A stretch of DNA of 64,000 nt from Aquilaria yunnanensis. Taxonomy: Eukaryota; Streptophyta; Magnoliopsida; Malvales; Thymelaeaceae. Positions 16,962-59,660 of the stretch are shown here, piece by piece. Within the stretch, counting starts at the first letter, position 1; the number at the start of each line of letters is the position of its first letter. The position numbers and the translations under genes are program-made. The notes under the pieces were generated by a model. The model did no database searches and had not been told where the DNA came from. It saw nothing but the letters and a program-made list of their open reading frames with translations. Where the stretch lies: assembly GCA_039654915.1 (NCBI GenBank), contig CM077596.1:57844501-57908500 (forward strand), read 5' to 3'.

Positions 16962-16963
<2 letters not shown>

Positions 16964-17273
16964 TAAAAGCAAACTATTCAAAACGCACCGTATAAGTTAA
17001 AAATTTACCAACGGCTAAAGCCGTTGGTAAAGTTTCAAAAAAAAAAAAAAAAACCACCAACTGCTGGGAAGTTGGAAGTTTACCAACGGCTAAGCCCGTT
17101 GGTAATTACCAACGGTTTGAACGTTGGAAAAAAAAACTGTAACAATTTTTTTTTTAACCCTCACCAACGCGTGCACGTTTGAAAAAAATACCAACGGTTA
17201 TACGCGTTGGTAACAACCAACGGCTAAGCCGTTGGTAAAATGGCCGTTGGAAAATCAACCAATTTTAGTAGTG

Positions 17274-18789: not shown

Positions 18790-19557
18790 GAATTGAATTC
18801 CATGTACAATCATGTACAAGAAGAAGCTTGCTTGCAGTTAAACATGCAAGTCTTCCTTATGTTACAAGAAATAGAACGAACTCAAAATTTAAGGTAGGTC
18901 ATATAAAACCTGCATCGCTTTCCCTCTAACTAGATTCGAATTTGCATTTGAGGTCATAAAACTGCAAATTTCACTACAAATGTGCTAACAAATGTCAAAC
19001 AACATTAAAACTTAACCAATTCATCCAAAGTCAAATTAAAGCACACTTCAATGTCAATTTTTACCTCTCTTTTTGTATTTAACTTTATTTGTTTTTTTCC
19101 CCTAGTTTTATTCCTTGTTATTTTTTTAATTTGTCTACCTTTTATTTTTAGTTTTATTTCATCTTTTACTTTTATATAATCCTATTTTTTTTCAAGAATT
19201 TATCTAATTTTTCAACTAGTAAAAAAATAAATACTAGTTGAGAGAAAAAAATAAACAATTACTGATAAAAGAATACTTAATTCCTCTAAAGGAAAAAAAA
19301 ATAAATACAAATAAAGGACAACTAATTTCTCTAAAAAACTAACAGCTACTCATAAAACAATATATAGATAAAAATAAAAAAAATAAAAATAAATAGTTTA
19401 TAAAAAACACATGTAACTTATAGAAAAATAATAACTTTAGTCAAAAGAATAAATAACAATTTTTTATAAAAATTAAATAACTAACAGTAAAAGAACATAA
19501 AAAAAAAACAAACATAAATAAATAGTTTATAACATATATAGTGTCATTAGTCAGTTC

Positions 19558-23556: not shown

Positions 23557-23561
23557 TAGAG

Positions 23562-23789
23562 TGTTGAACAGGAGTGGATTGATTCAACACTTATGGATAA
23601 CTTCTGTTTCAAGTTTCCTATCTTTTCGGTTTCAGTTCCTGATATCTTGCTTTGTTTACGTTAAGGTTGTTAGTCTAGTTTGTTATGCTTCTGTAAACGC
23701 CTCCATAAAAGGCAAACTATCAGATTAATAAGATGCACAAGTTCATCCAATTGTTCTATGCTCAATTCTGCTCTTCTTAAGATCCATCA
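23562..23789 (+). repeat. Left LTR of copia A
   Basis: 228 bp, TG..CA termini. It matches the right LTR except for a few substitutions (for example gtggattg versus gtggactg, and ttcatcca versus ttcaccca). Confidence 0.97.
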
Positions 23790-23846
23790 TTTGGTATCAG
23801 AGCCAGGTTGGGCTAGAACATTAGTGAACTATACCTTCAAGATACA

Positions 23847-26800: not shown

Positions 26801-27683
26801 ATTTCTTATATCTGAGTTTAGAGATGCTATGATGAATGTGTTTAAGATGTCTGATTTGGGAAAGTTGCATTACTTTCTCGGTCTTGAAGTTTGGCAAACA
26901 TCAGAAGGCATTTTTTTGTCTCAACAAAAGTATGCTATAGATATGTTAAAGAAGTTCAAGATGCTGGAATGCAAAGTGGCGAAGACTCCTATGAACATGA
27001 ATGAAAAGTTCTTTACAGAAGATGGGATGAAAATGGATGATGTAAGTTTCTTTAGAAGTCTGGTGGGAAGATTAATTTATTTAACTCACACCAGGCCAGA
27101 TATGGCATTTGCAATAGGAATGATCTCAAGATTTATGCATCAACCATCCAAACATCATTTAGGAGCTGCAAAAAGGATACTGCGTTATGTTGATGGAACA
27201 AAGGAGTACGGTTTATGGTATAGAAGAGTGACAGATTTCAAACTCATTGGGAATACAGATAGTGACTGGGCAAGATCCGTTGATGATCGAAAAAGCACCT
27301 CAGGATACTATTTTTCACTTGGATCAGGAGCTGTTTCATGGACATCAAAGAAACAGCCCACAGTAGCCCTATCATCAACAGAAGCTGAGTATGTAGCAGC
27401 AAACTCAGCAGCTTGTCAAGCAGTGTGGCTCAGGAAGATTCTCAAAGATCTCAATCAGGAGCAAAAGGAGGCAACTGTAATTTTCTTTGACAATATGTCC
27501 ACTGTGAACTTAACTAAGAATCCAGTGTTTCATGGCAGGACTAAGCACGTTGAGATCAAACATCATTACATTCGTGAATTGGTGGCTAGAGAAGAAATAA
27601 AGCTGGTTCATTGCAGCACAGCACAACAAACTGAAGATGTGCTAACCAAATCCTTGGCATTATCTAATCATGAAGTACATTGA
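23847..27683 (+). pseudogene. Copia A gag-pol polyprotein with four in-frame stops
   Basis: One continuous frame starts at the ATG at 23847 and ends at the TGA at 27681-27683. Gag (UBN2 type) is followed by an RGRGR-rich stretch and the zinc knuckle CPYCKKYGHREDDC. Next come a protease-type DSACSNHMTG (about 24730), the GAG-pre-integrase HxxxxH/CxxC region (WHMRYGHLNF, CEECSYGKQ), and the integrase core with HTDLCG, RTDRGGEF and QNGVAERKN, so D, D and E are all kept. Reverse transcriptase has YVDDMIYTAS, and RNase H has DSDWARSVDDRKSTSGY and STEAEYVAA. The frame is interrupted by TGA 24651-24653, TAA 24822-24824, TAG 25977-25979 and TAG 26397-26399, with no frameshift. The catalytic residues look intact, but the protein cannot be made in one piece from this copy. 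Confidence 0.95.
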
Positions 27684-27722
27684 CTGAAACTTGGAATTGG
27701 AGCATTGAATCAAAGGGGAGAA

Positions 27723-27950
27723 TGTTGAACAGGAGTGGACTGATTCAACGCTTATGGATAACTTCTGTTTCAAGTTTCCTATCTTTTCGGTTTCAGTTCC
27801 TGATATCTTGCTTTGTTTACGTTAAGGTTGTTAGTCTAGTTTGTTATGCTTCTGTAAACGCCTCCATAAAAGGCAAACTATCAGATTAATAAGATGCACA
27901 AGTTCACCCAATTGTTCTATGCTCAATTCTGCTCTTCTTAAGATCCATCA
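27723..27950 (+). repeat. Right LTR of copia A
   Basis: 228 bp, preceded by the polypurine tract at about 27711-27722 and followed by the TAGAG duplication. Confidence 0.97.
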
Positions 27951-28799
27951 TAGAGGTCTTCTTTTTTGACACTATCTCTGCTCATTGCGGCCTTGGTGGA
28001 TATAAGGCAGATTAAAGCGCATAAATATGTTCAGATGCAAGCTCAAATAAACAACAATGAACAAATAAATTTCTAGGCAAAACTTATAATAAAATGAGAT
28101 AAAGGAATATGAATATCAGAACCAAAGGAAAACATTAGTTCCTTCACAGTATTGCTTATGAACTAAAAGGAAACAACAATCATGCCTGTCCATTATATCT
28201 TTTCAACTATAACTGCTCGGATTCTTATTCCTCAATTAACATCACAGCTCAATCAAATCCTTGAAAAGTGCCATTCCATCTACAATAAACCTGCAGAAAT
28301 GGGCTGAAGAGGAAATGATAAGAAAGATAAGAAAAGCAAAAGACGAAATCGACCTGACAGATCACTTGGTCCCTTCGTGCACCGCAACTACTGAGCTTTC
28401 GGAGAACATAATTGTATTCTTGTCGCTGTTGGATCAATTTCCGTTCGAGCTCCCTCCATTTGTTGATTTCAGCCACAAGATGACTGGAAAAATTTGATAA
28501 CAGAAAATCTATGGAGAACTCAAAATCGAATATGAGAAGTTGGTCAGCGGTGATGAGAAATGCCGCGGTTATGCAGTGGTCGTGAGTGAAAAAAAAGTCA
28601 GCAACCGAGAGAAAAAGGGTGGTTGGCGATGATCAACGAAAATTGGGATAGAGATAGCTGCCAGAGCAGAGGAGGCGGCGGATCAAAGAAGAATGGTGGT
28701 CGGCGGCGGCGATGACGACGAATGGTGGTTGTAATACCTCCCAAGGAGGTTGCTCTGGGACAAATGAATTAGGACAGACTTTTTCGTTCTTTATCACTT

Positions 28800-29730: not shown

Positions 29731-32700
29731 TAGAGGTGGGAACCGGGTCGGACCGGCCCGGGACCGGCCGGTCCTGGGCCTGGTTTCTGAGGCCCGGGCA
29801 CGGACCGGCTCTAGGCGGGGCAGTCCCGGGGCGGGGCGACGGCGGGGCGGGGCGGGGCGGGTTTCATTTTTTTTTTGTTAAAAAATATATATATATAAAA
29901 TAGAACAATTATTAATTATATAAGTCATAAATATTTTTAAGAAAAAACACCACCTCCGGTGTAAGTTTTATTAAGTTAAAAAGCCAAACGGCACTTACAA
30001 ATAATCGGAACGTGCCTTACATTTTAAAATGGCAAAAACGTTCCGAAAATGATAAATAATAGAAACCTATGATCTGTGCTGAACAGCATAATCAGATCAA
30101 ATACAAACTACATGTATGATTGAAAGAAAAAAATTTAACTCTCGGTATCGGATATTATCTCATCATCCGAACTCTTTTGGTCTTGATGCCAGAGTGCTGC
30201 GAGGCCCCAATCTCGGTTGCACACGCATACTTCTACCGCGTCGGGTGTCAATCTTGACCGTTTTTCTGTTATCACCTGTTTTCCGGCACTAAACGCTGCC
30301 TCAGATGAGACGGTCGATACTGGAACGGCAAGAATTTCTTGTGCGATTATCGACAAGATCGGAAATCTTGATCTCTTTTGTTTCCACCACTCCAAGATGT
30401 CGAGGTCGCTTGTCTTGAATGATGTGTTAAGATAGTCATCGACCTCAGCTAATCCCGATGTCATCGGTCGAGGTCGTTTGAGCATTTGGAGCGCTGGGTT
30501 GAATCTTGAGGAGATTGATCTCCTTGGAGGCTCAGTTTGAGAAGCTTCGGATCTTACCTTATCCGAATGCTGCTCACAATATAACTTGTATAAAGAATGC
30601 AAGTACTCGGCAGCAGAAGCAGACATAGCCAAAACATTTATATGAGACATTTCTAAATAAGTATGAAAAATTCCTTCAAGCAGTGTTGTTGTGCCCATTA
30701 ATTTTACATACGGGTCAAGTAAAGAAGCGACTAAAAAGATAGGTGGAATGTTTGAGAAATATTGAAGCCACTTAGCCCGCATGGCTTCGACAGTCGGTTT
30801 TAACAACTCATCATTTTTAAATTGATGTAAAGCATAGGTGATGTTCACTAAATGAAACAAAACTTGATGACTTGTTGAGTAGTAAACACCAGAGAAAAAT
30901 TCAGTTGCCTCGTAAAAAAACTTAAGCAATTCACCGGTTTTGGAACATTTCTCCCAAATTTCAGTCGTAAGAAATTCAGAACCCATTTTTAAATTCATGA
31001 AATGTGACAACAAATTTGCATACGGTAATGCATCTTGCAACATAAAAAATGTGAAGTTCCAGCGGGTTGGGCAATCCAATTTAAACCGTTTCCAAGAAAA
31101 TGGTTTTTGATTTTCAATACAAAAGCTTTTAAATTCACGAAAAATAGCAGGTCTGGACATCAAATATTTTAATGAGTTTTGAATAGGCAAAATCTCATTT
31201 TGGAGAACTTCTAAACCTTTTTGCACACAAATGTTTAAAATATGGCACATGCATCTAACGTGAAAAAATGCACCGTTGAGCGGTGGTTGCAAGTTTTGAC
31301 TCAAAAGACGAGCGGCAACATCATTATTTGAAGCATTATCAAATGAAATGCACAGAACTTTATCAGTACAAAAATAATCACGTAAAGTTTCTAAGATACA
31401 ATTAAATATTTGAAAACCAGTATGATCTGTTTCAATAACCTTAAATGACAAAATTCGTTTTTGCATTATCCAATCAGAATCAATCCAATGAGAAGTAACA
31501 CAATAGAATGATTGACCTATAGGTGATGTCCACATATCAGAAGTAAATGCCACACAATGATCAAGAGCAGAAAAATATGCTTGCAAATCTGATTTTCGGG
31601 TTTCAAATTGTCTAAAGCTTTCTTTCCTAGCAATTTTCCTAGATATTTTTCTAAATGCAGAATTTAATTGTGATTTTATCCAAGATTCTAGGTGAACATC
31701 TTCAGCTTGTGAAAAAGTTTTTCGGTAAGCATCATCCAATTTACCATACCTTCTCTACAAGATTGTTGGTTAAAACGAAATATACCTGGTCCGCCGGTGC
31801 CGGTTGCAAACCCAAGTTGTGTTTGTCCTCCAGAACTAGTCCCGGTATTAGGGAGGACGTTAGCATGTTGATTTTCAATATGCCTCTTCAGCGTTCCAGT
31901 GCCAGAATTCTTTCTATGCACAAAATTTTTCCCGCAATGTTTGCATTTTCCGTACCTCGACTCCTCTTCGTTTATGAGCTCATAATGCTCCCAAACCCAA
32001 GCAGTTAGTCTCGTGGATTTACCTTGTGCTTGAGTTCCCTCCACGCCGGGTGCATGACTTGTAGGCGTCGGTTTCTGTTGATGGATTCCCATACGCCATC
32101 GCATCCAACTCTTCCACTTCATCATTGGATAATTGATCGTCGAGACCCAAATCGTAATTCGTCATATTGATTCCGGCATCATCGTCGTGAAACTCTTGAA
32201 TTGAAATGCCTTTATCGGCGGGCCGAGATCGGCGACGAAACAAGGCTCGGAGGCCGGTGTTGCGGGAAGATGAACTATCTGTTGACTTGCCCTTTCCTTT
32301 TGAAGCCATGACTCACGTACTAATAGTAGTGATTAATGCAAAATCAAGAGAGGATTATGAAGATATTAGGGAGAGATTAGTAACAAATTTGGAAGAAATT
32401 AAGAAAATAAGGAGAATGGTTGAGAGAATATAATAGATGAAGAAGAGAGGTTGAGTGATTGTGTGAGGATTGAGTGAAAATGGCATTGGTATTTATAGGG
32501 AGAAGGGAAAAATTAGTTTGACCAAAAAGTCCTTGAAATTTAGTTGTTGGGAGGGGCAAAAATGAAATTTTGGGGGTTGAAATGGAGCAGAAAATCGTTG
32601 GAGGGCCTGCTGTGTAATTAGCCCTTTTTTAAAAAAAAATTTCTGCAGGTTTATGTTGCGCAGAGCCGTTGCGCGCGGGTCGGCGGGGCGGGGCGGTCCG

Positions 32701-35850: not shown

Positions 35851-36113
35851 TGTAGGAATTCGATGACCAAATCTCTCAGATTTGGAAAGTATTCTAACTG
35901 TAGAATATGACTGAACAAGATTGGGAAACTAGAATTAAAGGGGATATTTTATTTCCTTTAATATCTAAGGTGTAGTTAGCTTTCCTTTCTTCTTAGCTTT
36001 CCCTTCTTCTGTAATTTTCCTATTCTTTGTTAGTCATTAATTCTATATATTAGGGTTGTACATACGTATTTTCTAAGTGAAATATATAGAAGAAAATTAC
36101 TCTGATTTCTTCA
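35851..36113 (+). repeat. Left LTR of copia B
   Basis: 263 bp. It starts TGTAGGAATTCGATG and ends GATTTCTTCA, and matches the right LTR over its full length without indels. Confidence 0.95.
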
Positions 36114-36192
36114 TGGTATCAGAGCTGGGTTCTCTTTAGCATTGTTTTTTGAAACCCTAGCTGCTGTCCAGTTTTTCTCCTTTAGCCAAAAA

Positions 36193-39100
36193 ATGTCTGA
36201 AGTGTCTGAATCCACCCTTGTTACTCCTACTGCATCTTTTAAGACCACCGAAACCAAAATAACTCATATTGAAGCTCATTCAGTCCAGATCACCACTATT
36301 CGACTGAATGGAGGGAACTTCTTACATTAGTCTCAATCAATACGGATGTATATCCGTGGAAAAGGCAAGATCGGGTATTTAATTGGAGATACCAAAGCTC
36401 CAGCACCAACAGATCCTTCATATGCCACCTGGGATGCAGAAAACTCTATGATTATGGCATGGTTGGTGAACTCTATAGATGAAAACATTAGTGCAAACTA
36501 TATGTGTTATTCTACAGCCAAAGAACTCTGGGATAATGTAACCCAGATGTACTCAGATTTAGGAAATCAATCCCAAATATTTGAACTACAATTGAAGCTT
36601 GGAGGCATTCACCAAGGAGATGATGATGTAACAAGATACTTCAACTCGCTAAGAAGGATGTGGCAGGATCTTGGCCTCTTTAATGACTATGAGTGGAAGA
36701 ACGTTGATGATTTTAATCATCATTAGCAAACTGTGGACAGTGATCGGATTTTCAAGCTCTTTGTTGGTCTTAGAGATGATTTTGATGATGTGCGAAGACG
36801 TATCCTTGGCAGGCGTCCATTACCACCAATAGGAAAAGTATTTTCTGAAGTAAAGCGTGAGGAAAGCTGCCGGAATGTTATGCTGGGCAAGAAGAATTCT
36901 GGTAGTCTTATAGAAACTTCTGTCCTTGTTGCTGGTGCTAATCAGCAATGTTCAAATGCACAACCTCGTGTCTGGTGTGACTACTGCAACAAACCTAGAC
37001 ATACCCGTGAAACCTGCTGAAAACTCCATGAAAAACCTGCTGATTGGAAGAGTAGTAAGCCTGGTGGGGACAGAAGTAGCCGTTCAACACCTTCAGCACA
37101 TGAAGCAACCAATCTAAATTAGGTTTTTAATAAATAACAGATCGACCAGCTTCTGAAACTGCTAAAACCCGATCCACAGTCTAGTTCTTCTAATGTTGCT
37201 TTGGTTCAAACAGGTAGAAATTCAAGTGCTTTATCTGGCTCTTTAATACTTACACCTTGGATTATTGATTCAGGTGCTTCTGACCATATAACAAATAACT
37301 CAACCTTTTTTAATTCTTATTTTCCTTGTCTTGGCCATAACAAAGTTCGTATTCCAAATGGTAGCCTTTCACCTATTGAATGGAAAGGAACTGTAAAAAT
37401 TTTGGATAATATTGAGTTAAAATCTGTCCCTCATTTCCCTAAACTATCTTGTAACCTTTTATCGGTAAGTAAACTGTCCAAAGATTCTAACTGCCATATT
37501 ATTTTATTTGATTCTTATTGTGAATTTCAGGACCAGAGTTCGGGGAAGATGATTGGCAGTGCTAAAATGAACAGTGGACTTTATTATCTTGGTGATAATC
37601 TTCTACAGAATAAACAAGCTCAAGGTCTGAGTGGTAGTATTAGTTCTTTTTCAGTTTATGAGACAATTATACTCTGCATCAAAGATTAGGGCACCCTAAT
37701 TTTCCTTATTTAAGGCATCCATTTCCTAGTTTGTTTCAAAATGTGGATTGCAATTTCCTTTATTGTAAACATTATTATTTATCTAAGAGTCATCGTATCC
37801 CTTATAAACCTCTTGAGTACCGAGTGTCTTACCCTTTTTACTTAATTCATAGTGATGTTTGGGGACCTTCAAAAATTACTACCCTATCCAGAAAAAAATG
37901 GTTTGTAACCTTTATAGATGACCATACTCATCTATGCTGGGTTTATCTAATGAATACTAAATTTGAGATAGAAAACCTATTTAAAGATTTCTACAAAATG
38001 ATTGAAAATCAATTTCAAACTAAAATAAGTATCCTTCGAACCAATAATCGTACCGAATATTTCAATGAGTGTCTAGGGAGTTTTTTACGCTCTAAAGGTA
38101 TTTTACACCAATCTACATGTCGTGACACTCCCTACCAAAATGGTATTGCTAAAAGAAAAAATCGTCATTTACTTGAAGTAGGTAGAGCTTTGCTCTTTTC
38201 TATGAATGTACCTAAGTATTTGTGGGGTGATGCAATCTTGATTGCATGTTACTTGATAAATCGAATGCCTAGTCGTGTTTTGAAATATCAAACTCCCTTG
38301 CAGTGTTTTCAAAATCTATTTCCAGGAAGTCATTTGACTTCAGAACTTGATTTAAAAATATTTGGATGTACTATCTTTTTTCACCTTCCTTCACATCTTC
38401 GCTCCAAGTTAGATCCTAAAGCAGAAAAATGCTTTTTTTTTTGTTATGCACCTAATAAACGGGGTTACAAATGTTGGAATCCAGTGACTAAAAAAACACA
38501 CATCAGTATGGATGTGATATTTCTGGAAAAATAACCTTTTTTTGAAAAAACTCATCTTCAAGGGGAGAGAGGATATGAAGATCGGTTTTGGGATTTAAAT
38601 ACCACTACACCTACACCTAGAATATATCTATTTCCTGATTATATTTCAACAGAAAATACAGGGCTAACTCTTCGTAGTGAACCTCTTTCTAATGAGCCTA
38701 TCTCTTCTCCAACTGAGATACAAATGGGAAAAAAAATACTGCCAAATAATCCTGAGCTCCGTGTTTATACTAGGCGAAGATTTCATCACAAGAATAAAGA
38801 TCAGCTGGTCATCCAAACTCAATCATTGCCTCTGAAGTCTGGTCACTTAAATGACCCAGGTATCTCTTCTTCTCAAACCTCAAGTCCTTCTATTTATTCT
38901 AATCTAGATCTACCTATAGCACTTAGGAAAGGAGTTCGCTCCTGTACTCAACACCCCATTGCCAAATACTTATCTTATCATAGACTTTAAAAGAACCATA
39001 GAGCATGTGCTACCAATATTTCTCATGTGTTTGTTCTAATAAACATTCAGGAAGCACTAGAAAACCCGGATTGGAAATTAGCAGCTTTGGAAGAGATGAA

Positions 39101-40451
39101 AGCTCTCCATAAAAATGCAACATGGGAAGTTGTGGACCTACAACAAGAAAAGAAGATAGTTGGATGCAAATGGGTTTTTACTGTCAAATGTAAATCTGAT
39201 GGCAGTATATAGTGGTACAAAGCAAGGCTTGTGGCAAAGGGTTTCACCCAAACCCATGGGATTGACTACCAAGAAACTTTCTCACTAGTTGCCAAGATGA
39301 ACTCAGTCTGAATCTGTCCCTAGTTGTTCATCATAACTGGCATTTATACCAGTTGGATATTAAAAATACTTTCCTTAATGTAGAGCTAGAAGAAGAAGTA
39401 TTCATGGAGTTACCGCTTGGATTTGAAGAAAATATGGAGGTGCAAAAGTGTGCAAGTTAAAGAAGTCTCTATATGGTCTGAAGCAATCGCCATGAGCTTG
39501 GTTTGAATGGTTTGGTAAGGCAGTAAAAGGACACGGTTACACCCAAAGTCAGGCCGATGATAGCATGTTCTACAAACACTCAAAAAAGGGGAAGGTAACA
39601 GTACTAATTGTATATGTTGATGATATAATGTTGACAGGTAATGATCATACCAAGCTACTAGCTAAAGACTTTGAGGTAAAAGACCTCGGGATCCTCAAGT
39701 ACTTTCTTGGCATGGAGTTTGCTTGATCAAAAGAAGGATTGTCTCTCAGCATAAGTATGTACTGGATTTACTAGAGGAAATAGGGTTGCTTGGGTGCAAA
39801 CCTGCAGAAACACCCATGGAATCCAGCCTAAAAATTCAACCCAAAAGTTCATGAGAACATGTGGACAAAGAGTAGTATTAACATCTAATGGGAAAGCTAA
39901 TATACGTGTCTCATACCCGTCCAGATATTGCCTTTGCAGTGAGTGTAGTAAGTTAGTTTATGCATTCACCAGGGGCAGAACATTTTGATGCAGTCAATAG
40001 AATACTAAGGTACCTAAAGGGTACTCCAGGAAAAGGACTACTATTCAAGAAAAATGACAATTTTCAAGTGAAAGTGTATATGGATGCTGATTGGGCTGGA
40101 AGTGTGATAGATAGAAAGTCAACTTCAGGCTACTGCACCTTTGTTGGAGGAAATCTAGTCACTTGGCGTAGCAAAAAACAAAGTGTGGTGGCATGGAGTA
40201 GTGCCGAGGCTGAATTTAAAGTTGTAGCTCTCAACATTTATGAAATCTTATGGATTAAACAGCTTCTTGAGGAATTAAAAATGAAGATTCAACTACCTAT
40301 GAAAGTCTACTGTGATAACAAGTCAACCATTCTAATCACTCACAATCTAGTACTTCATGATCGAACTAAACATGTGGAGATTGACAAGTGCTTCATAAAA
40401 GAGAAATTGGATAAAGGACTTGTTTGTATACCTTACATCCCAACTACATAA
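36193..40451 (+). pseudogene. Copia B gag-pol polyprotein, heavily mutated
   Basis: The likely start is MSEVSEST at 36193. Gag (UBN2/retrotran_gag type) and a zinc knuckle remnant (CDYCNKPRHTRETC) are in one frame with stops at 36328, 36724 and 37018. Protease has WIIDSGASDHITNNS (about 37258). A frameshift near 37670 precedes integrase (37731-38534). In integrase the second and third catalytic positions are altered: RTNNRTEYF where copia elements have RTDNGTEYF, and AKRKNRH where they have AERKNRH. Reverse transcriptase is fragmentary (YVDDIMLTGND at 39610), and RNase H (39960-40451) has DADWAGSVIDRKSTSGY. The copy is inactive for protein. Confidence 0.92.
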
Positions 40452-40554
40452 CAGGTTGTAGACATTTTAACTAAAGGATTACCAACAAAGCAATTTGAAA
40501 ACTTAATTGGCAAGGTAGCCATGAAAGATTTTTTTTGTCCAGCTTGAGGGGGAG

Positions 40555-40817
40555 TGTTGGAATTCGAGGACCAAATCTCTCAGATTTGGAAAGTATTCTA
40601 GCTATAAAATATGACTGAACAATATTAGGAAACTAGAATTAAAGGGGATATTTTATTTCCTTTAATATCTAAGGTGTAATTAGCTTTCCTTTCTTTTTAG
40701 CTTTCCTTTCTTTTGTAATTTTCCTATTTTTTTTTAGTCATTAGTTGTATATATTAAGGTTGTACATACGTATTTTCTGAGTGAAATATACAGAAGAAAA
40801 TTACTCTGATTTCTTCA
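40555..40817 (+). repeat. Right LTR of copia B
   Basis: 263 bp. It starts TGTTGGAATTCGAGG and ends GATTTCTTCA, followed by the TTACC duplication. Confidence 0.95.
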
Positions 40818-41739
40818 TTACCACTCCTGAAATATTGCTGGCCTTTAATTCCACTCTCAGCATCCGTGACAACCCATTAGCACATATAATGAATAAATAA
40901 GGAGAAAGCGAATCTCCTTCCCAAAGCCCTCTACTTAAACCTAAATTTCCATGTTATTGCCCATTCACCAAAACAAAGTACAAGAAAGATGAGATGTAGT
41001 CCATGATTAATTTAATCAATTTGTCCAGAAAGCCAAACTTATGCATTATATGCTCCATAAAACTCCATTCAACCTTGTCATAAGCTTTGGACATGCCCAA
41101 CTTCTTTAATGCACAATAAGAACTTTTCCTTTGCCAATGTCCTCGCAAACTATGAAGCATCACATAGGCCACCAAAATGTTGTCAGAAATTAACCGACCT
41201 TTTATAAAAGCACTATGTTTGGTAGAGATAAGATCAAGCAACACCTTTTTGAGCCTACTTGTCATTATCTTTAATATAATTTTACATAACACAATGCAGG
41301 GGTTAATGGGTAAAAAATGAGCTACAGTTTCTAGAGATTTTACTTTCGAAATGAGCACAATATTTGTATTATTTATGGCTTTAACACTCTCACCACAATT
41401 TAATGCATTAAGGCACAAGTCAATGACATTAGAATGTACCTTTGCCTAGAATTTTGATAAAACAGTGCCGCAGGCCGTCTAGACCAAATGCCTTAGTTGG
41501 GTGCATCTCCATTAGTGTAGCTTTCACTTCCTCTATGCTAAATGGATGAATCAAGTCATGCAAGTAGTCTTGAAAAATAGTCACGAATGCCAAATCAGGG
41601 AAGAAAAACGCATATTGGTCCACTGAAGACTTAAAGAGGGTGTGAAAATATGTCAATGCCAACCAAGCAATACCTTTGTGTTCGAGTCCCCTTATTAAAA
41701 CCAAGTCACTCCCAACTACTTCTATCAAATTAGCATGTA

Positions 41740-45118: not shown

Positions 45119-47154
45119 ACAGAGGTGGATCCATTCATGGAGAAGTGGGATACTTGGATACCACCTTTTAAAAAAAAAAAAAAAAGTGTATACAAGAGGC
45201 TTCTAAAATATTACTTAGAACCCACTTTTATTTTTTATTGAACTCCACTAAAAATAGAAAAAAAGATTGGAAGAAGAATTTTAATTTTTCACCTCCCCGA
45301 AAACAAAACATCAATAATTAGTTTTATTTTTTTTCTTTCATCTTTTTTTTTCACACCCCTTTTCCTATAGAAGAAAATAAAAAAAATATTTTTTTGAAAA
45401 AAGAACATGGACCCCTTTCTAATTTCTTGTAACTCCACAAAACTAATTAATTTTTTTCCTTGTCATTTTTATTTTTTCTTCTCTCAACTCATATCGACAA
45501 AAACCCTAAAATTAATTATTCACATACTATAGATGAAAAAAAAAAACAAGATTGACCATGAAATTACCTTTCCAAAAGAGGTTAGTTCAACACTTCTTTT
45601 AAATTATTATATTTATATAGTAATTTTACTTATGCATAATTTTTTTTAGGCCAAAATGCACATATAGTCCTCCAACTTGACAAACTCGAGCGAGTTAGTC
45701 CTTGTTGTTTGACTCACTGTGAGTTAGTCCTCTAACTTTCTAGATTTAGCGTTTTAGTCCATAAAGTTTGCTAAACTAAACAAGTTAGTCCATCTTCTAA
45801 CGGAAGGCGTCCAGCTCAGCGAGGGTCTGACTTAACGCCGTCTGTTAGTGAATAGGTGGATTAAAAACGAACAGAGGCGGCGGCGGTGATGGAGCATTCG
45901 AGTTCGACGATTCAAGCTCCACCACATCGAAGTCATCAAGCAAGAAACCAAAGATCGGTGATAGAGGCGACGTAATGGAGGCATGAATTTGTTGTTGAGG
46001 ACGGCAGAGGGTGGCGATTCGATGAGAATCGATTCGACAGAGGTCGGCGATTTGCGATTCGAGAAATGCAAGACCGATGGGAGATAGGAGATTCGGCAAT
46101 CAAGGAGATGTGAGACTGATGGGAGGTAGGAGACGAGATCGACCCGAGTTGGAAAGGTAAGATCGATGGCAAGGGGAAGCAGGGGGTCGGTAGGAAAGGG
46201 GCAATAAAGCGTTGAGGGCATCGGAAATGGATGGGTATGAGAGCGTTGAGGGTGGCGAATGGGTGAGGTTGGATATGGGCATCGAATTTTTGGGGGGTTG
46301 ATGGCGAATCGGCAATCAATTTTTGAGGGCGGCGCGTTAGCGACTTGGAGGAGCATTTTTGTTCCCCCTGTTTCTCACCCAACCCAGCTCAGCAAAGCCT
46401 CCCAAGCCCCATGCCACATCATCAACACATATAACCCTGCCATGCCACATCAGCAGCACATAAGCCTTTCATCCAATTTGGACTAACTCGCAAATTTTTT
46501 CCAAGTTGAGGGACTAACACACAATGAGTCAAAGATAAAGGACTAACTCGTTAGAGTTAGCCAAGTTGAGGGACCATATGCGCATTTTGGCCTTTTTTTT
46601 ACAGAAAATTTGTCTGATATAATTTAATCTATATGCTGCTCTGCTCCAACATGGCATGCACAAGGGTCACAAGCAAAATTATTTTGGTTTGATGCATTAC
46701 AACAGTATTTCCTTAGAAATAATTTTTGATGCCCCAGTAACACAACCAAGCAAGAAAGAAAGAGATTCCTCAATTGATTCAAATACAAAAGTAGCAAAAC
46801 CGATGATTTTATATATTTATGTACACAAAATTTGATTTTTAGCAATAAAATTGATAAAGATTAATTTTTGGAATAAAAATGAGTGATCAATTTACGAATA
46901 ATTGTTTAGTAGCATATATTGAGAAAGATGATATTGTTTAGTAGCATATATCAAGAATGATGTATTAGATGGTGTTATTAATGATGTCATTACAAAAAAA
47001 ATTTTAAGAAATTAAAAGTCACCGAAAAATGACTGTAAGATATTAATTTGTTACTTATCATATAAATAAATTTCTATCTTTTAGTATATGAATATAATTC
47101 TTAGTAGTGAAGTATATATATAGACCCCACTTTCAAAAAATTCTAGATTCGCAA
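45119..47154. mobile_element. hAT-like element with nested Mutator-like insertion
   Basis: The left end ACAGAGGTGGATCCATTC and the right end (AGTTGCGAATCTAG on the other strand) are imperfect inverted repeats. Copy A lacks the interval: tagaagaaatggtagac-like sequence continues where copy B has ctatgacga (45110-45118) and ctaagatga (47155-47163), probably the diverged target duplication. Near the right end, 46877-46940 encodes MSDQFTNNCLVAYIEKDDIV, like the C-terminal region of zinc-finger MYM-type (hAT) transposases of plants. A Mutator-like element of 944 bp sits inside at 45649-46592. Confidence 0.6.
45649..46592. mobile_element. Mutator-like non-autonomous element 4 (nested)
   Basis: The ends read GGCCAAAATGCACATATAGT on the left and GGCCAAAATGCGCATATGGT on the right (other strand). 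The inverted repeats extend about 110 bp (gagttagtcc words). Perfect 9-bp flanking duplications, TTTTTTTTA, lie at 45640-45648 and 46593-46601. The interior has overlapping Pro/Ser-rich minus-strand frames (for example 46356-45832), which are repetitive in character and match no family known to me. Confidence 0.85.
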
Positions 47155-47431
47155 CTAAGATGAAAAGGTAGACAAATTAAAATAACAAAAAAAGCAAGGA
47201 ATAAAATTGGAACAAAACAGCAAATAAAATTAGAAACAATACCAAAAAAAAGGATAAGAAAAACTAGAAAATGACAATAAAAAATAGATTTCAAAAAAGA
47301 AATAAAAAATGAACAGGTGGAAGGAAAACTAAAATAATAAATGAAAAAATAAATGTGGAAAAGCAAAAAACAAAATTACTGAAATTAAAAAGATTGGAAA
47401 AAAAATGAAAAAAATACTGGAAAAAATGGAG

Positions 47432-47507
47432 GTTTATCTTCAGCAAGAGGCAAACCCTTGACTCCATAATTTAGCCAAGTGTGCTAACCACTCCACTAAA
47501 CACAGAT
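47432..47507 (-). other. tRNA-like relic (possible SINE piece), copy B
   Basis: On the minus strand, GTGGTTAGCACACTTGGCT is followed by AGGGTTTGCCTCTTGC. This is the duplicate of the relic at 13400-13478. Confidence 0.3.
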
Positions 47508-47567
47508 ATTTATTTGTATCTTGCAGAAATAATACAAGCAGCGTACACTACTAACTTTCGTGGCTTT

Positions 47568-47825
47568 TCCAACGGCTATACCGTTGGTAGTTTCCAACGC
47601 GTAGAGCCGTTGGTAGATTTCAATATGTAGAACCGTTGGTAATTATTTCCAACGAGCACGCGTTGTTGAGGGTGTAAAATTTCTTTTGCAGGTTTTTTTT
47701 GTTTCCAACGTGCTAGCCGTTGGTAATTACCAACAGTGAAGACCATTGGTAACATTCCAACTTCCCAGCGTTGGTAGAAATTTTTTTTTTTAGGGTAGTT
47801 TACCAACGGCTAGCCGTTGGTAAAT
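47568..47825. repeat. Left subterminal palindromes of CACTA element 2
   Basis: Repeated TCCAACGGCTATACCGTTGG-like hairpins, five or more, followed by TTACCAACGGCTAGCCGTTGG at 47800-47821. They are the same type as in element 1. Confidence 0.85.
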
Positions 47826-48084
47826 GGTTTTTAAAATCCTCTTCTTCATTTTGCAGGTTCAGACGCGAGTTCAGGTGAGTTTCGGGGAGAGAGAAGGTCT
47901 GGTTTCTCCGTGACGGCGACGCCGTCAAATGCCGGCCAACGTCCGTCCGTTTTCCGCCGTTCTTGTTCGTTTCTCCGTGACAGCAATTCTTTGAACTCTT
48001 GATTGTTTCTTGTTTTTTGAGAATTTTTTTGGGGTTTGGTTTCGTTTTTTAATCCTGGTATCGAAGTTTGTGATGTGTGTTGGG
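47826..48084 (+). other. Sequence between CACTA end and the first captured exon
   Basis: GC-richer than the surroundings (gacggcgacgccgtc, ccggccaacgtccg). It contains an acceptor-like TTTTGCAG at about 47862-47869 and a donor-like CAG/GTGAGT at about 47886. It may be a captured leader exon or promoter from another gene; I cannot name its source. Confidence 0.35.
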
Positions 48085-51000
48085 CGTTGCCAGGCTTCGG
48101 CTACCAGGGGACCCAAGGAGAGGAACACTAGATTGGAGAACTTATGCTGGAGAATTTGGAATTTGGCTCGCAAGAAAAAGCAGGTCAGCTTTTTTCTTTT
48201 TTCTTTTTTCTCTGGAAAACTAACTCGTTAATTTTGTGGATGGCGTGAAATGAGCAACAGCTATGTCTTTGGTCTGATGTTAATTGCGAAGTAGACAAAT
48301 AATTTGATTTTGGTTCCAGAAAACCAGAACGGTAAAAGCAGGAAAGAAGGCTAAATATTGGTTGCTATGAACTTCTATGAACTTAAAATTTGGCAGCAAT
48401 TGTGGATAAGCCTATTTGTTGAAACTCGTGGAGCAATTTATTTTCGTCAGTGCCTTTAATTAATTTCAAGTTACCTGAATTTCAACTGCTTAACTTTAGA
48501 ATTATGTTGCAACCTGTCATGTAAGAATGATGCAATAATCTAATGTATTTCCTTTCATTGTTGCTGATTTCTGTGAGCCATCTTCTTATTTCTTTTTTCA
48601 TCTCTAATTGTTTTGCTACCTCATCAGCTTGAGGGAGGAAGCTCAACAAAATGCTAAACGACACCTTGAACGGGAAAGAGCTCGAAGAGAAGCAACAGCA
48701 AATATGTCAGAAGACTTATCAGAAGGAGAGAGGAGATGGGCCGGGTGAGATTTCAGCTCATGGTGAAAATGCTAAAGGAGGAATGCCGAGAATCAGTTCT
48801 GTTGACATGATGGAGAATTTGGTGAATCAGCTGAAAGAAAAGAAGTTGTATATTATACTGATAAGGCATGAATAACTCTTCTTGTTACCTGATGCATTAA
48901 AGTTGTTATCTAGATACTTCACTGATTTTAGCATTAGTAATTGGATATAAAATTTATTGTATCTACCTCTCATTGATGTTACTTTTAACTACTGGAATTT
49001 TTCAGCCTTCATGGCTTGATACGTGGTGAAAATATGGAACTTGGTCGTGATTCTGATACTGGGGGACAAGTTGGTTATATTCCTTATTTCCCACTAGGAA
49101 TCTTATCATTGTGCTGAATGTGGGAGAATGGCTTTTCTTCGTGGGAGCAGTACTGTTATGAAAATAGGGGACATTGATCTTATATTTTGTAAGCAGGTTA
49201 AATATGTAGTAGAACTTGCAAGGGAATTGGGCATGATGCCAAGGGTTTATCGTGTTGATTTGATGACAAGACAAGTGTCAGCTCCTGATGTAGATTGTAG
49301 TTATCCTGAACCGACGGAGATGCTTAATCCAGGAGATGCTGAGAATTATATGCATGAGCATGGGGAGAGTAGTGGTGCTTATATAATCCGTATACCATTT
49401 GGCCCAAGGGACAAATACGTTCCAAAGGAAAATCTTTGGCCACATATTCCTGAATTCGTTGATGGTGCACTTAGCCACATTATGCAGATGTCCAAAGTTC
49501 TCGGCGAGGAAATTGGTGATGGGAACCCAGTCTGGCCTGTTGCCATACATGGCCATTATGCAGATGCTGGTGACTCGGCTGCTTTTCTTTCTGGAGCACT
49601 GAATGTGCCAATGCTTTTTACTGCCCATTCACTTGGACGAGATAAACTTGAGCAGCTCGTAAAGCAGGGAAGACAGTCAAGGGAAGAGATAAATTCAGCA
49701 TACAAAATTATGAGGCGTATAGAGGCAGAGGAATCATCTCTTGATGCCTTTGAGGTTATCATTACTAGTACCAGGCAGGAGATAAAAGAGCAATGGCGCC
49801 TCTATGATGGCTTTGATCCAGTATTGGAGCGAAAACTTAGAGCAAGAATCAAAATGGGTGTTAGCTGTCACGGCAGATTTATGCCTCGCATGGTTGTAAG
49901 TATCAGGAACTCGTAGTTGTTAGTTACACCATGTTTCTAATCATTTGTAAATGAGGGTGTTTTTTAGTTGTTCTATGAAAAGATTTGGGGTTATCATTGT
50001 ACCGTTTGGAGGTGCTCCAGTGCATAAACCAAGTGGCATCCTAGTTTTAGAGATGGATATTCTAAGTCTAGTACGTGAGAATAGAGTTTAGTGTAGACCT
50101 GAGGTTTCATTGTGAGCATCTGTGAGAACGATTAACTCTGCTAGAACTATCAATGGAATTTCTAGTTGAATGTAATGGCGACACAAGGTTCATGTCAATG
50201 AACACTAGTTTAGGATCTAAAGTTAGTTGAGTGATTGGTTGTCTGTATTATATTTCCAGGTAATTCCTCCTGGAATGGAGTTTCATCATATTGTTCCTCA
50301 TGAAGGAGATTTTGATGGGGATGTAGAACGAATTGAAGGTAACCTAGCTTCTGCTGACCCACCAATTTGGTCTGAGGTAATTCATATTATTTATTTATTC
50401 AATTTTTAGTATCATCTTCTTGAACCTAATTTCAGTTCCTTATATAGCTAGAAGAATTTTGCCGAGGCTTCCTGTGCTCAGGGTCCCCATTGGTGGAAAA
50501 ATATCTTTGTCATCTGAAGATTACTTTTTGTATTTTTGCAGATTATGCGTTTCTTTTCAAATCCACGCAAACCAATGATACTCGCCCTTACACGACCAGA
50601 TCCAAAAAAGAATATTACGACTTTAGTGAAAGCATTTGGAGAATGCCGCCCCTTAAGGGAGCTCTCTAATCTCGTATGTATTATTCTTTTAAGTCAATTC
50701 TATATGGTAGTTTGTTGTGCTATTTTGTATTTGCATATACTCCCATATTCTTTATCTATCTTGAGCACATTATGAACCTTAGATATACATGAACTATTGT
50801 GATGTCCATGTTTCGGATGTTCACTATATCCAGCAATCGCTCATTTTTTATTCTAGTTTCTGTTCACTCCTGGCAAATAATTTTATTACTTGATCAACAG
50901 AGTCCCTCAACAGATATATTCTTTTTTCTAATCTTTTACACCTTTTCTGTAGGGTGTTTTCATTAATCCAGCTTTCATTAAGCCATTTGGGCTTACACTA

Positions 51001-51157
51001 ATTGAGGTGCTTATTCATACCGATTGATTTTAATTTTTTTTTTATTTCATGTCTTAACCAGTTATAGGTTGACTTGTGTTATTTTGTGAAATAGGCAGCA
51101 GCTTATGGTTTGCCAATTGTTGCCACAAAAAATGGGGGTCCGGTTGACATTCACAGG
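48085..51157 (+). pseudogene. SPS: Captured sucrose-phosphate synthase gene fragment
   Basis: Sucrose-phosphate synthase makes sucrose 6-phosphate from UDP-glucose and fructose 6-phosphate in the cytosol. Exons readable in order: 48085-48183 ([20 protein letters not shown]), 48628-48864 (ERERARREATANMSEDLSEG, phosphorylation-site motif MPRISSVDMM, LYIILI), 49016-49069 ([20 protein letters not shown]), 49197-49895 (YVVELAREL to GRFMPRMV, with HGHYADAG and [14 protein letters not shown]), 50260-50376, 50542-50673 ([20 protein letters not shown]), 50953-51006 (GVFINPAFIKPFGLTLIE) and 51095-51157 (AAAYGLPIVATKNGGPVDIH). Missing are the first exon, the exon between 50673 and 50953, and everything after the last. 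The second exon has two 2-bp deletions. The first Glu of the EX7E motif is Lys. Confidence 0.95.
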
Positions 51158-51399
51158 GTTTGTCTACAGTCATAGCTTGAAATGATTGTAATCAACTAAA
51201 TGTTATATGCTTTCTTCCAGACATATATGTTCTTGTTTTAATTATGCTGTATTTGAGAATATTTTATGAAAATTACGTTTGCAAAGCTGTGTAAACTTTA
51301 TTGCTGAGTAAAGCTGGGGGAACTTTTGAATTGGTATATATGTTAATTTCGAACTTGTTTCAAACTGGGAAAAATACGAAACAACCGAAACCTGGGACG

Positions 51400-51720
51400 C
51401 TTAATGTACATTACCAATGTGCAACCAGGGTTTATCAACTCGTGCGCGTTGGTAATTATCTCCTACCAACTGCTGGCAGTTGGTGATGGGCAGTTGGTAA
51501 CTTACCAACTGCTAACAGTTGGTAACTACAACTACGGGATGGAAACCAAGCCAGGTTCCTGACCGTTGGTAATTATGAACGTGAATTTTACCAACGTATA
51601 CACGTTGGAATTTACCAACGTGTTATTAATTGCGCGTTGGTAAAAAAAATTTTCCAACAAATCGAATACCAACTTGCGTTTACCAACACGCAGCAGTTGG
51701 TAAATGGCAATTGGTAAACA
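51400..51720. repeat. Right subterminal palindromes of CACTA element 2
   Basis: Alternating TTACCAACTGCTAACAGTTG and ACCAACGT/ACGTTGG units run up to the TAGTAGTG end. They closely resemble the left end of element 1 read in inverse order. Confidence 0.85.
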
Positions 51721-52085
51721 CCTGAATTTTAGTAGTGGTATGATATAATTAGTCATGTTCATGTAAGGTTTACTCATATTAATTTTTTTTGCAATTACAA
51801 ATGAAGCTCACCTTAAGTGATTAAACTCTTTTATACTTATATGTATGTATAAAAACAATCAATGTTGTTTTACATTTTTTTTTTTTTTTGAATATTTGCT
51901 TTTAACCCTTTTAACGAAAGCGAGCAGAGAGCCAACGTTCAATCGTATATTTAGAGGTTTTAAATTCAAAATAGAATTTAAATGTCTCTCTCCTGCTGGA
52001 ATTTGAAAGGGGAATTTGTGATTTTGTTGCCTTTCTTGTTCTTCAAGTCCGAGGAGTCCAAGAAGTCTAATACAACTTGGAAAAC

Positions 52086-52194: not shown

Positions 52195-53361
52195 ATGGTT
52201 TCTAAGGGCAGATCCAGCGGCAGTGGTAGCAGTAGCACAGCAAAGAATACCGCCGGAAGAGCGTCCAAATCCGGTTCAGAATGGCCAAATCTTCCGGCCG
52301 ATGTTCTTCAACTCATCGCCAAGCAGTATTTGGATATCTTCGATGCTCATAGCCTCACCGCCGTTTGCAAGGACTGGAACCTGCAATCTAGCAGTCTCCT
52401 GCACCCGCCTGAGCCTGAGCCCCCATGGCTGCTGACCCAAGACCTGAGCAAGCTCTACCAGTCACGTTACGTGAGCAACAAGCCTTACGTGATCACGAAC
52501 TGTGCGCGGCACTGGTGCGCCAGTCCTGTGGCATCAAAGCTGGGCTGGTTACTGATGGAGGATGCGGGATGGAACTTCAAAGACATTAATTACTTCTTCT
52601 GGTACCCTTTCGCTCGCGGGAAGTGGATGAAGATACTCCCCCTGCCACCAATAGAAACCAGCGGTTACCGTTATCATTTTCGCTTAGCCACTTTCTCCTG
52701 CAGTCCTGAGTCTCCCGAATGCGTCATCTTTGGAGTGAACTACAAACCTGGCAGCGAAGATCTTCTGATCCGGACATGTCGCCGGGACGATCGTAAATGG
52801 AAGAAGCATGTGTTTGCGTGCAGATTCAGACGAGACAAGTACACCTCGTTGAGAGGCATTGTCTATATGGAACAGCATCAAATGCTGTACTGTTTATTTG
52901 AGGATGGAAGCTTGGGGGGTTTCTGTCCTACCGACAATTCATGGAACTTACTGATAAATGCAGATGCAGAGAGGATGTTTCATAATGTTGCCGCACGATA
53001 CGGTGATGACTGCTTGGTGGAATCTGGTGGAGTGCTTCTGCGGATCTGCGGATTCTATAACATAAACGTAGGGACGACGAGGATTTTCAAGTTCGATCCC
53101 TGCCAGGTTGCTTGGGTGGAACAGGACACGTTGGGTGACCGTGTGTTGTTTCTTGGTGTTCGTCGTTCGTCCATCTCAATGGCAGCGACAGGGCGTATGG
53201 CGGCATTGGCTGGAAGGATTTACGTGCAAGAGAGCGACGGCCTCATTTGCAGAGAGGGAGATAGGATCAGAAAAGGCTGTTCCGATGATCTCTTCAGCAG
53301 TGAGGTTTCCGAAGGATGTCACATCTGGGGCACTTGGGTTATGCCCCCATATGCAAAATAG
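52195..53361 (+). CDS. F-box protein with DUF295 (KIB-type) domain
   Basis: Intact single-exon gene of 388 codons. A Ser/Gly-rich N-terminus (residues 1-28) is followed by an F-box (about 29-70: WPNLPADVLQLIAKQYLDIF, then SLTAVCKDWN). F-box proteins of this type bind SKP1 and select targets for SCF ubiquitin ligases. The remainder has the beta-propeller-like layout of the plant DUF295 family (repeated Trp/Phe/Gly strands, FKFDPCQVAWVEQDTLGDRV, then LFLG near residues 295-325). It ends with the conserved IWGTWVMPP near the C-terminus. The start is the first ATG after an in-frame stop-rich leader. It lies 458 bp right of CACTA element 2, and a broken duplicate is at 17950-18789. The family is plant-specific and expands by duplication; the substrate is unknown. 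Confidence 0.9.
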   Translation: MVSKGRSSGSGSSSTAKNTAGRASKSGSEWPNLPADVLQLIAKQYLDIFDAHSLTAVCKDWNLQSSSLLHPPEPEPPWLLTQDLSKLYQSRYVSNKPYVITNCARHWCASPVASKLGWLLMEDAGWNFKDINYFFWYPFARGKWMKILPLPPIETSGYRYHFRLATFSCSPESPECVIFGVNYKPGSEDLLIRTCRRDDRKWKKHVFACRFRRDKYTSLRGIVYMEQHQMLYCLFEDGSLGGFCPTDNSWNLLINADAERMFHNVAARYGDDCLVESGGVLLRICGFYNINVGTTRIFKFDPCQVAWVEQDTLGDRVLFLGVRRSSISMAATGRMAALAGRIYVQESDGLICREGDRIRKGCSDDLFSSEVSEGCHIWGTWVMPPYAK

Positions 53362-53715
53362 CTAGGAATTCCATGTACAAGAAGAAGCTTGCTTGTAATT
53401 AATCATTAGCCTAGAGGACAAATATATAGCATATGCTAAAGTGTGTCTCGAATGATGAGATACATGTGCATTTCTTATTTTGGTGAGTATATAAACTTTC
53501 GTAAGAAATAATATATTGTATGAGCTATACATGCAAACACATGTTCCTTATGTTGCAAGAAATAGAACGAAATAAGAACTTGTAATTTGTAAACGAACAA
53601 TAAACTGACTAATGACTATTTTTTTTTTATAAAAAGTAAATAACTAATAGTAAAAGAATATAAAAAAAACAAACATAAAAATAAATAGTACATAACATAT
53701 ATAGTGTCATCACTT

Positions 53716-55039: not shown

Positions 55040-55480
55040 CACCATACAATTAACGTATTAATTTAGAAACTCAATGTATTATTTTGGAAATCACATGTAT
55101 TAATCTGGAAATCCAATGTACCATTATATACATTCATTGTATTAAACTAGAAATTCAATGTATTACCCTGGAAATCCAATATATCATTCTGGAAATATAA
55201 AGTATCATTCTATAAATTCCTTATATTAAATTGAAAATCCAATGTATTAATTTGGAAATTCAAAGTATTATTCTATACATTCGTTGTATTAATCTTGAAA
55301 TCTAATATACCATTATATATATTCCTTGTATGAAACAAAAAATTCAATGTATTACCCTGGAAATCCAAAGTATCATTCTATACATTTATTGTATTAAACT
55401 GTAAATCTAATGTATTAATTTAGAAACCCAATGTATTATTCTATACATTCGTTGTATTAAACTATTCAACCATGTGATAC
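55040..55480. repeat. Degenerate tandem array around aatgtattaatttggaaatc
   Basis: About fifteen copies of a word of about 25-30 bp (gtattaa..tggaaatccaat) follow each other with substitutions, plus interspersed tatacattc.ttgtattaaac. No coding potential. Confidence 0.7.
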
Positions 55481-58150: not shown

Positions 58151-59660
58151 GGGTAAAATTCACCATAGGTCACCTAGCTTATTTTTTTGTCCTATCCGGG
58201 TACCTTACCTTTATTTTGTTCTAATGAGGTACCTTTCCTCTTATTGTGCATTCTGTTCAGCTACTTTCCGTCAAATTGGTTGTTAAATTGGATGGAAAAT
58301 GATGAAGTGGCATTAAATAATACTAAACTAAACTTAAAATAACAACTTCAGTCCTCAAACTATTTCAATTACTAATTCTAACCCTTAAAATTTCACTTAA
58401 GCCAATTCTATCCCTCTTATCCCGTTCACCGCCACCTCCCACGCTTCTCCCCCGTCATTCTCCCACCAGTCACGTCACACTGCACACACCCGGACCATCA
58501 CCAGTCCCAAACTCACCATTTCCAACAGACGCGTGGATTCTGACAAACTTACCAGCCACGGCGTTTGAGTCATTCACTTCCGATTCATTCGACAAGAATT
58601 CGAGTCTCCTGGAGGAGATTCTCTTCGTCGTCACTTGGATGGTTCCTCTAAATGAAGAATCAAGATTCTACTTTGGATCATTCGCTTCTATTTCTTCCAT
58701 GGTTCGGTTTTTGAACCGTAACGGGGACCTTCTGGTGAAGCAAAACGCCATGGCACTTCTCAAAGAGCTCGTTTCATCAGGCACAGGAAACCACCACTCG
58801 GAATCTCTGGCAGCCATTGACGGAATCTCGGATACCCTGTTCAAATTCGTCAAAAACCAAATCAGCCTCTCTGTCACAAAATCATCTCTCATGGTGATTT
58901 TCCACCTGATTTCCAGCAATTCTTAGAACCAAACAATCATCGCCGAGTTCGTCCACTTGGGCTTGGCTTCTCTGCTACTAGAGATAACGATTGAGTCCAA
59001 GAAAAGCGTGTGCGAGAAAGCTCTATTAGTGCTGGATTCCCTCTACAAATCGAGGGAAGCTCGAAAAGAGGCTTATGAGAACGCCTTGACGGCGCCAGTG
59101 CTGGTTAAGAAGATCATGCGGCTGCCAGGGGCAGCGACAAAGGCGGCAGTGTCGACCATGTGGAAGCTCTGCAAGTACGAGAACACGTATCAGGAGAGAG
59201 TTCTAGTGGAAGCTCTGCAAGTGGGTGCGTTCTAGAAGCTGCTGCTGCTTCTCCAGGTAGGCTACGCCGAGGACACGAAAGAGAAGGCAACGGAGCTCAT
59301 GAAGCTTTTGAATCCTTACAGGGCCAGATTGGAATGCATTGATTCGCAGGACTTGAAGAATCTGAACCGTGGGAGGTGGCAGTGAACGGGATGAGAGGGG
59401 TAGAATTGGCTTAAATGAAATTTTAAGAGTTAGAATTAGTAATTGAAATAGTTTGAGGACTGAAGTTGTCATTTTAAGTTTATTTCAATATTATTTAATG
59501 TCATATCATCATTTTCCATCCAATTTAACAACCAATTTGATGGAAAGTAGTTGAACAGGATGTGTAATAGGAGGAAAGGTACCTCGCTAGGACAAAATAA
59601 AGATAAGGTACCCGGATAAGATAAAAAAATAAGCTAGGTGACCCATGATGAATTTTACCC
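58151..59660 (+). mobile_element. Pack-MULE carrying a U-box E3 ligase gene fragment
   Basis: Long inverted repeats of about 290 bp (58151-58443 and 59369-59660) begin GGGTAAAATTCACCATAGGT and, on the other strand, GGGTAAAATTCATCATGGGT. They are flanked by identical 10-bp duplications, AATTTAGTAA (58141-58150 and 59661-59670). The entire space between the repeats is the 3' part of a plant U-box gene. No transposase is present. Long repeats, 9-10 bp duplication and host coding DNA together define a Pack-MULE. Confidence 0.93.
58560..59385 (+). pseudogene. Captured plant U-box (PUB20/21-like) ARM-repeat region
   Basis: Plant U-box proteins are E3 ubiquitin ligases with an N-terminal U-box and C-terminal ARM repeats. 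Here one frame runs from SFDKNSSLLEEIL through FLNRNGDLLVKQNAMALLKE, KALLVLDSLYKSREARKEAY and AAVSTMWKLCK to LLNPYRARLECIDSQDLKNL, which is the typical C-terminus of the PUB20/21 group. The U-box and the first half are absent. Two in-frame stops break it: TAG at 58924-58926 (after ISSNS) and TAG at 59233-59235 (in place of the Gln or Lys before KLLLLLQ). The frame is otherwise undisturbed. Its last codons and stop come from the right inverted repeat. Confidence 0.9.

Follow-up and report, generated by a model that had tools for sequence, protein, structure and literature searches.

Here we describe a stretch of 64,000 nucleotides from Aquilaria yunnanensis (contig CM077596.1), hereafter the window, in which a non-autonomous CACTA (En/Spm-type) transposon at 47546-51737 encloses part of a sucrose-phosphate synthase (SPS) gene, very probably taken up as a genomic segment. 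A first-pass annotation had proposed such an element, and its ends, GTA duplication, and palindromic subterminal arrays were all recovered, with boundaries exact to the base. Between these ends the eight SPS exons that it had reported, in order and with introns over about 3 kb, were found as well, in agreement with a plant SPS model. The parts of the element, described in relation to a second CACTA element of the same window (the sister), are as follows.

47546-51737, plus strand: CACTA element with SPS capture, 4,192 bp, placed by its ends, its arrays, and comparison with the sister
47543-47545, no strand: target site duplication (TSD) GTA, left copy
51738-51740, no strand: TSD GTA, right copy
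47546-47834, plus strand: 5' terminal and subterminal repeat region (289 bp), 73.0% identical to sister positions 17273-16997
47835-48093, plus strand: 5' junction stretch, SPS intron 1 and/or element leader or other captured DNA
48094-48183, plus strand: SPS exon 2
48628-48865, plus strand: SPS exon 3, with two 2-bp deletions and a GC donor
49006-49069, plus strand: SPS exon 4
49197-49895, plus strand: SPS exon 5, 233 codons, open
50260-50376, plus strand: SPS exon 6
50542-50673, plus strand: SPS exon 7
50674-50952, plus strand: fused introns 7/8, exon 8 absent
50953-51006, plus strand: SPS exon 9, with Lys at the first Glu of EX7E
51095-51157, plus strand: SPS exon 10
51158-51198, plus strand: start of SPS intron 10, with the 3' capture junction within it or at its end
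51199-51737, plus strand: 3' element region, with successive sister matches at 89.6% (96 bp), 68.5% (181 bp), and 85.3% (218 bp)

The left end of the element reads CACTACTAA and its reverse complement closes the element at 51737, with perfect agreement over 9 bp only. The two GTA copies adjoin these ends directly (a 3-bp match of this kind is expected by chance in about 2% of cases at the base composition of the window), and both subterminal regions hold arrays of CCAAC/GTTGG palindromes, including a 26-bp perfect palindrome at 47799-47824. A pattern describing the subterminal palindromes, which was composed after the arrays had been seen, matched the window 9 times, at 6 distinct places of which 3 count on both strands, whereas 100 shuffles gave an expectation of 0.00; two of the nine matches lie in the SPS element and the other seven in the sister. 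The motif CACTACTA matched 7 times against 1.26 expected; four of these matches are the ends of the two elements and three lie elsewhere. Inverted CACTA ends, a 3-bp TSD, and subterminal repeat arrays are thus all present, as in CACTA (En/Spm) elements. A transposase is seen only by way of the sister, where Transposase_24 lies beside 3' sequence common to both elements, and inspection of the open reading frames (ORFs) listed for the SPS element revealed none encoding a transposase. Host coding DNA within a CACTA element that lacks a transposase is the arrangement of Pack-CACTA or Tpn1-like elements. Pack-MULEs have a 9-bp TSD and long terminal inverted repeats (TIRs), and assignment to that class is ruled out by the 3-bp TSD and the CACTA ends.

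The eight SPS exon blocks follow one another on the plus strand in 48094-51157, with a total of 1,457 exon bp in a span of 3,064 bp, and are numbered 2-7, 9, and 10 in what we take to be the Arabidopsis scheme. All eight acceptors are AG and seven of eight donors are GT, the exception being the GC at exon 3; as the exon borders were drawn by eye and with attention to the splice rule, this agreement is not independent evidence. When exons 5, 6, 7, 9, and 10 were joined (355 aa), the plant SPS model TIGR02468 was matched with 705 bits (E 1.5e-211), short of the whole-protein cut-off of 1144 bits, as is expected of a query that represents about a third of the protein. Six distinct sequences of solved structure were also matched, the best (E 2.1e-26) being a glycosyl transferase, group 1. 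Among bacterial genomes queried with exon 5, 24 stretches fit a pattern and 8 encode relatives at 32-45% identity, which served as outgroup for the residues of the captured piece; viral contigs queried with exon 5 and plasmids queried with the whole element gave no match. At the nucleotide level and within the window, no SPS similarity was found outside 47546-51737, and the extension of SPS sequence past the CACTA ends, which the first-pass annotation had named as grounds for rejecting its proposal, is therefore not seen.

Intervening sequence with splice sites between all adjacent exons rules out a processed, mRNA-derived copy. Uptake as genomic DNA, as had been proposed earlier, is supported by the retained introns, by the termination of SPS sequence inside the element, and by the sister, which lies at a duplicated locus and has no SPS match. 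The unsplit 699-bp exon 5 and the intron before exon 2 fit family A of tomato, a comparison with one species that relies on exon numbering rather than on a tree. In that species the first intron is missing from the family B gene, and family C has an interruption in its fifth exon (PMC8124378). On this comparison, the donor SPS gene may have belonged to family A. If it had 13 exons, as do tomato SPS1 and SPS2 (coding sequences of 3,165 and 3,147 bp; PMC8124378), the captured piece would hold eight of these 13 and about 46% of the coding sequence.

Decay of the captured piece is light. The earlier description of the fragment as decayed was based on a pair of 2-bp deletions (here in exon 3), the lack of one exon (exon 8), and the Lys in EX7E; all of these were confirmed, but the frame is otherwise open and the term is too strong. 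No remnant of exon 8 was seen by eye in the three plus-strand frames of 50674-50952, and its loss keeps the frame. The bacterial relatives bear out the gap between exons 7 and 9, as they have about 60 residues there at 7 of 8 loci (the eighth ORF ends earlier), and the first Glu of EX7E is Glu in all seven relatives that reach the site. About 487 native-frame exon codons contain no stop (4 bases at the two deletion borders being counted twice). Once spliced, the exons can be read without a stop for 453 codons, starting at an ATG in exon 3 and ending five codons beyond exon 10; roughly the first 26 of these codons are out of the SPS frame, and the reading requires use of the GC donor. The captured piece differs at 7 of the 65 positions that do not vary among the bacterial relatives; these departures may reflect plant-type residues and do not measure decay. 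The Ala in the TAHSLG motif was dropped as a sign of decay, as it also occurs in 3 of 8 bacterial relatives.

The sister element and the duplicated surroundings of both elements provide the main context for the capture, and comprise the following features.

13652-17273, minus strand: sister CACTA element without SPS match, with a Transposase_24 remnant
13131-13502 and 47154-47534: flank match, 75.1% identity
17756-17829 and 51972-52046: flank match, 89.5% identity
17277-17382 and 51774-51882: flank match, 75.7% identity
52171-53361, plus strand: ORF of 396 aa from stop to stop that encodes a KIB1-4 beta-propeller domain and follows the SPS element downstream, in the same direction (its F-box-like match is below the curated cut-off)

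The sister has the same ends and arrays as the SPS element, and the two differ by 10-32% along their main matching stretches. Its interior consists of noncoding sequence and a remnant of a plant Transposase_24 (PF03004, E 8.7e-12 with two exons joined; the second exon alone had no Pfam match at E 0.001), and nucleotide comparison within the window found no SPS match in it. In the SPS element the common 3' stretch begins 41 bp past exon 10, at about 51199; in the sister it begins about 120 bp past the transposase remnant. The stretch 47825-48093 matches neither the sister nor the rest of the window. Relative to the sister, the SPS element is without about 2.7 kb of interior and holds SPS in that place. 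Given that the sister shares both ends and has Transposase_24 and no SPS match, the SPS segment probably took the place of the transposase interior. This bears on the idea that a second mobile element carrying SPS, such as a Helitron or Pack-MULE, inserted into a CACTA element: SPS does lie wholly inside the CACTA element, as such nesting would predict, but the missing interior points to replacement rather than insertion (no search aimed at Helitron or MULE ends was made), and we consider nesting very improbable.

The open frame of the captured piece can be set against the difference between the two elements. Under a neutral model with a transition weight of 2, a stop-free frame of this length limits divergence since capture to at most about 5.5% (95%), with the 50% point at 1.3%, as compared with the 10-32% that separates element and sister. 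Either the capture would therefore be younger than the split from the sister, or selection would have kept the frame.

Three side observations concern the sister itself. It contains a direct duplication of about 440 bp at 85.7% identity (15636-16078 and 16167-16608), and a run of 29 G bases at 16933-16961 in its 5' part. The sister at first seems to lack a TSD, but the trinucleotide TCC stands to the left of 13652 and again at 17277-17279, past three extra bases TGA (TGA and TCC together occupying 17274-17279), and may be its target duplication, a 3-bp match at a freely chosen offset being weak evidence.

Both elements are flanked by duplicates of a single KIB1-4 locus, and the KIB1-4 genes of the two loci match further on, beyond the flanks. 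With the elements removed, the flanks align through the insertion points at 56.5% over all 639 aligned columns, a low value because some 100 bp of the left flank and a portion of the right one have no partner. Judged by the near part of the right flank, the SPS element lies roughly 35-40 bp from the point corresponding to the sister insertion, in the opposite orientation. Each element is absent at the matching point of the paralogous locus, such that each locus represents the empty site of the other. From these alignments we infer that two separate insertions followed duplication of the locus; a single old insertion that was later rearranged is less likely. The same duplicated flanks bear on the alternative that the SPS piece is what remains of an SPS duplicate, tandem or segmental, in which CACTA ends came to lie by chance. 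No point was seen in its favour, the other copy of the locus has no SPS match, and SPS similarity is confined to the element at the nucleotide level in this window; we regard this origin as extremely improbable.

Two members of one CACTA family thus lie, in opposite orientation, no more than roughly 35-40 bp from a single point in the two duplicated KIB1-4 upstream regions, and it is possible that this point is an insertion hot spot. The KIB1-4 duplicates themselves match at 98.2% over 228 bp (17950-18177 and 52256-52483), and the next stretch (18175-18845 and 52686-53406) at only 73.9%, which looks like local gene conversion.

Taken together, the element is very probably a non-autonomous member of the Pack-CACTA or Tpn1 kind whose transposase interior gave way to a genomic segment of SPS, beginning in intron 1 or at the end of that intron and reaching intron 10. 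This reading draws on the ends, the TSD, the arrays, the exons with their splice sites, and the match to the plant SPS model, together with the sister that has Transposase_24 in the corresponding place and no SPS match, and the empty site at the duplicated locus. The interior of the sister would represent the older state, and a family transposase would have moved the SPS element in trans via its ends. Several points weigh against this. The perfect inverted ends are short (9 bp), and similarity to the sister is uneven, at 73.0% on the 5' side and 89.6, 68.5, and 85.3% along the 3' side. The 5' limit of the capture is placed only to within 47835-48093, and speaking of replacement presumes, on the basis of one sister, that its interior is ancestral. 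The donor gene was not seen in comparisons within the 64-kb window, and a single SPS-bearing copy is known, which leaves movement after the capture putative.

Capture at the DNA level could have followed a break inside an element, the gap being repaired with a switch of template (gap repair model of Rubin and Levy, cited in PMC8978399), or could have resulted from fusion of two neighbouring elements, as in the model of Catoni and colleagues (described in PMC8903248 and PMC13317346). These are two published models for such captures, and the donor junctions could tell them apart. Within the replacement reading, the gap may have been filled in place: a CACTA element would have inserted, broken or excised abortively, and been repaired from an SPS gene, the SPS-bearing form never having moved. 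The TSD and the empty site attest insertion of a CACTA element only, no second SPS copy was found in the window, and nothing speaks directly against this course of events, which we hold to be possible though on balance unlikely. Alternatively, two neighbouring family members flanking an SPS gene may have fused. Two family members do lie about 30 kb apart in the window, and a 5' side at 73.0% with two 3' stretches at 85.3 and 89.6% identity to the sister is what a hybrid could look like; however, the third 3' stretch, at 68.5%, makes the contrast between the sides weak. No inner copy of CACTACTAA with fewer than two mismatches is present in the element (14 places have two), although the model permits loss of inner ends. 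The local pair is, moreover, in opposite orientation, whereas published local pairs mostly share one (12 of 15 hAT and 12 of 13 PIF pairs in maize; PMC8903248). Fusion appears doubtful.

The SPS piece runs in the direction of the transposase remnant of the sister, and transcription from the 5' side of the element would thus be sense. Antisense capture is ruled out on orientation, and of the earlier suggestion that the element could yield chimeric or antisense RNA, the antisense part is left without support. A transcript from the 5' end would be a sense RNA, and its splicing could yield a truncated SPS frame that spans up to 453 codons and lacks both exon 8 and the C-terminal part. Most likely, the SPS piece is a passenger in a defective transposon that could be moved in trans by a family transposase. 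A role as regulator, in which the element would yield small interfering RNA (siRNA) or chimeric RNA acting on the parent SPS gene, is judged improbable from the sequence. A sense piece with 1,457 exon bp inside a transposon is of the kind proposed to feed siRNA pools (PMC2773423), and CpG observed/expected ratios are 0.50 in the SPS exons and 0.37 in the introns, compared with 0.73-0.79 in KIB1-4 and 0.86 in a U-box gene. Against this stand the terminal regions of the element, which have no CpG depletion (1.25 and 1.00), a hAT transposase at 0.90 and a GATA ORF at 0.29, and the lack of an antisense arrangement; with ratios this mixed across features of the window, CpG content says little about methylation here. 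It is decidedly improbable that the SPS piece has been kept, rather than being merely young, for a product of its own that is spliced from a transcript starting at a promoter in the element or its flank. Such a product, from the piece alone or joined to the downstream KIB1-4 ORF, would be a truncated protein with the glucosyltransferase domain and at most 453 codons long, or else an RNA tuning the parent SPS gene.

Elsewhere in the window, a Copia-type retrotransposon with gag and reverse transcriptase domains occupies 23558-27951, and with end repeats of 233 bp at 98.3% identity it is probably a recent insertion. A second element at 35851-40818, copia-like by eye from its ORFs, has end repeats of 264 bp at 93.2%. 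The hAT transposase (30135-31754) has an open frame of 539 codons with a Dimer_Tnp_hAT domain. An inverted repeat of 297 bp at 90.6% (58151-58447 and 59364-59660), the left arm of which overlaps an ORF with a U-box ARM domain, could by its structure be a source of hairpin RNA. A nested minisatellite with periods of 21, 63, 84, and 105 bp lies at 55044-55465. The window holds no Rfam match at gathering scores and no predicted tRNA.

Comparable captures have been described in several plants. In Tpn1 elements of Ipomoea nil, as here, terminal regions are kept and the interior is substituted by captured host genic sequence, with a 3-bp TSD and subterminal repeats, but the TIRs are 28 bp long, as compared with 9 agreeing bp in the present element, and the cargo here is SPS (PMC5105172). 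Soybean Tgm-Express1 is likewise a CACTA element with captured host exons and introns, the exons being spliced into host transcripts as cassette exons; it differs in carrying pieces of five genes in 5.7 kb within an intron of F3H, where the present element carries eight exons of one identified gene upstream of an ORF (PMC1947982). Pack-CACTA elements share CACTA ends and a TSD around coding DNA without a transposase; the gene pieces of 58, 163, and 260-280 bp given as worked examples in the same source come from other superfamilies (PMC8903248). Further cases of capture are reported from grapevine (PMC2528002), Chenopodium (PMC8978399), and maize (PMC2773423, PMC3503983). Judged by title and opening of the abstract, none of the papers retrieved in a literature search on this combination concerned a CACTA capture of SPS, and we do not claim that none is in print. 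Captured gene pieces of this sort can be miscounted as genes in automatic annotation (PMC2773423). The present locus offers a clean, long example of DNA-level CACTA capture, in which a sister element and the duplicated empty site lie within the same 64 kb.

Wheat chromosome 3B, where host genes also lie within CACTA elements with TSDs and some of them are transcribed and under purifying selection, provides the one yardstick for size (PMC4290129). There, 145 captured genes in 140 CACTA events have means of 488 bp of coding sequence and 3.05 exons, compared with 1,457 bp and 8 exons here, and by this comparison of means the piece is long, in support of the first-pass view. The kind of capture is thus already known, and the exon count of the present element is above the wheat 3B average.

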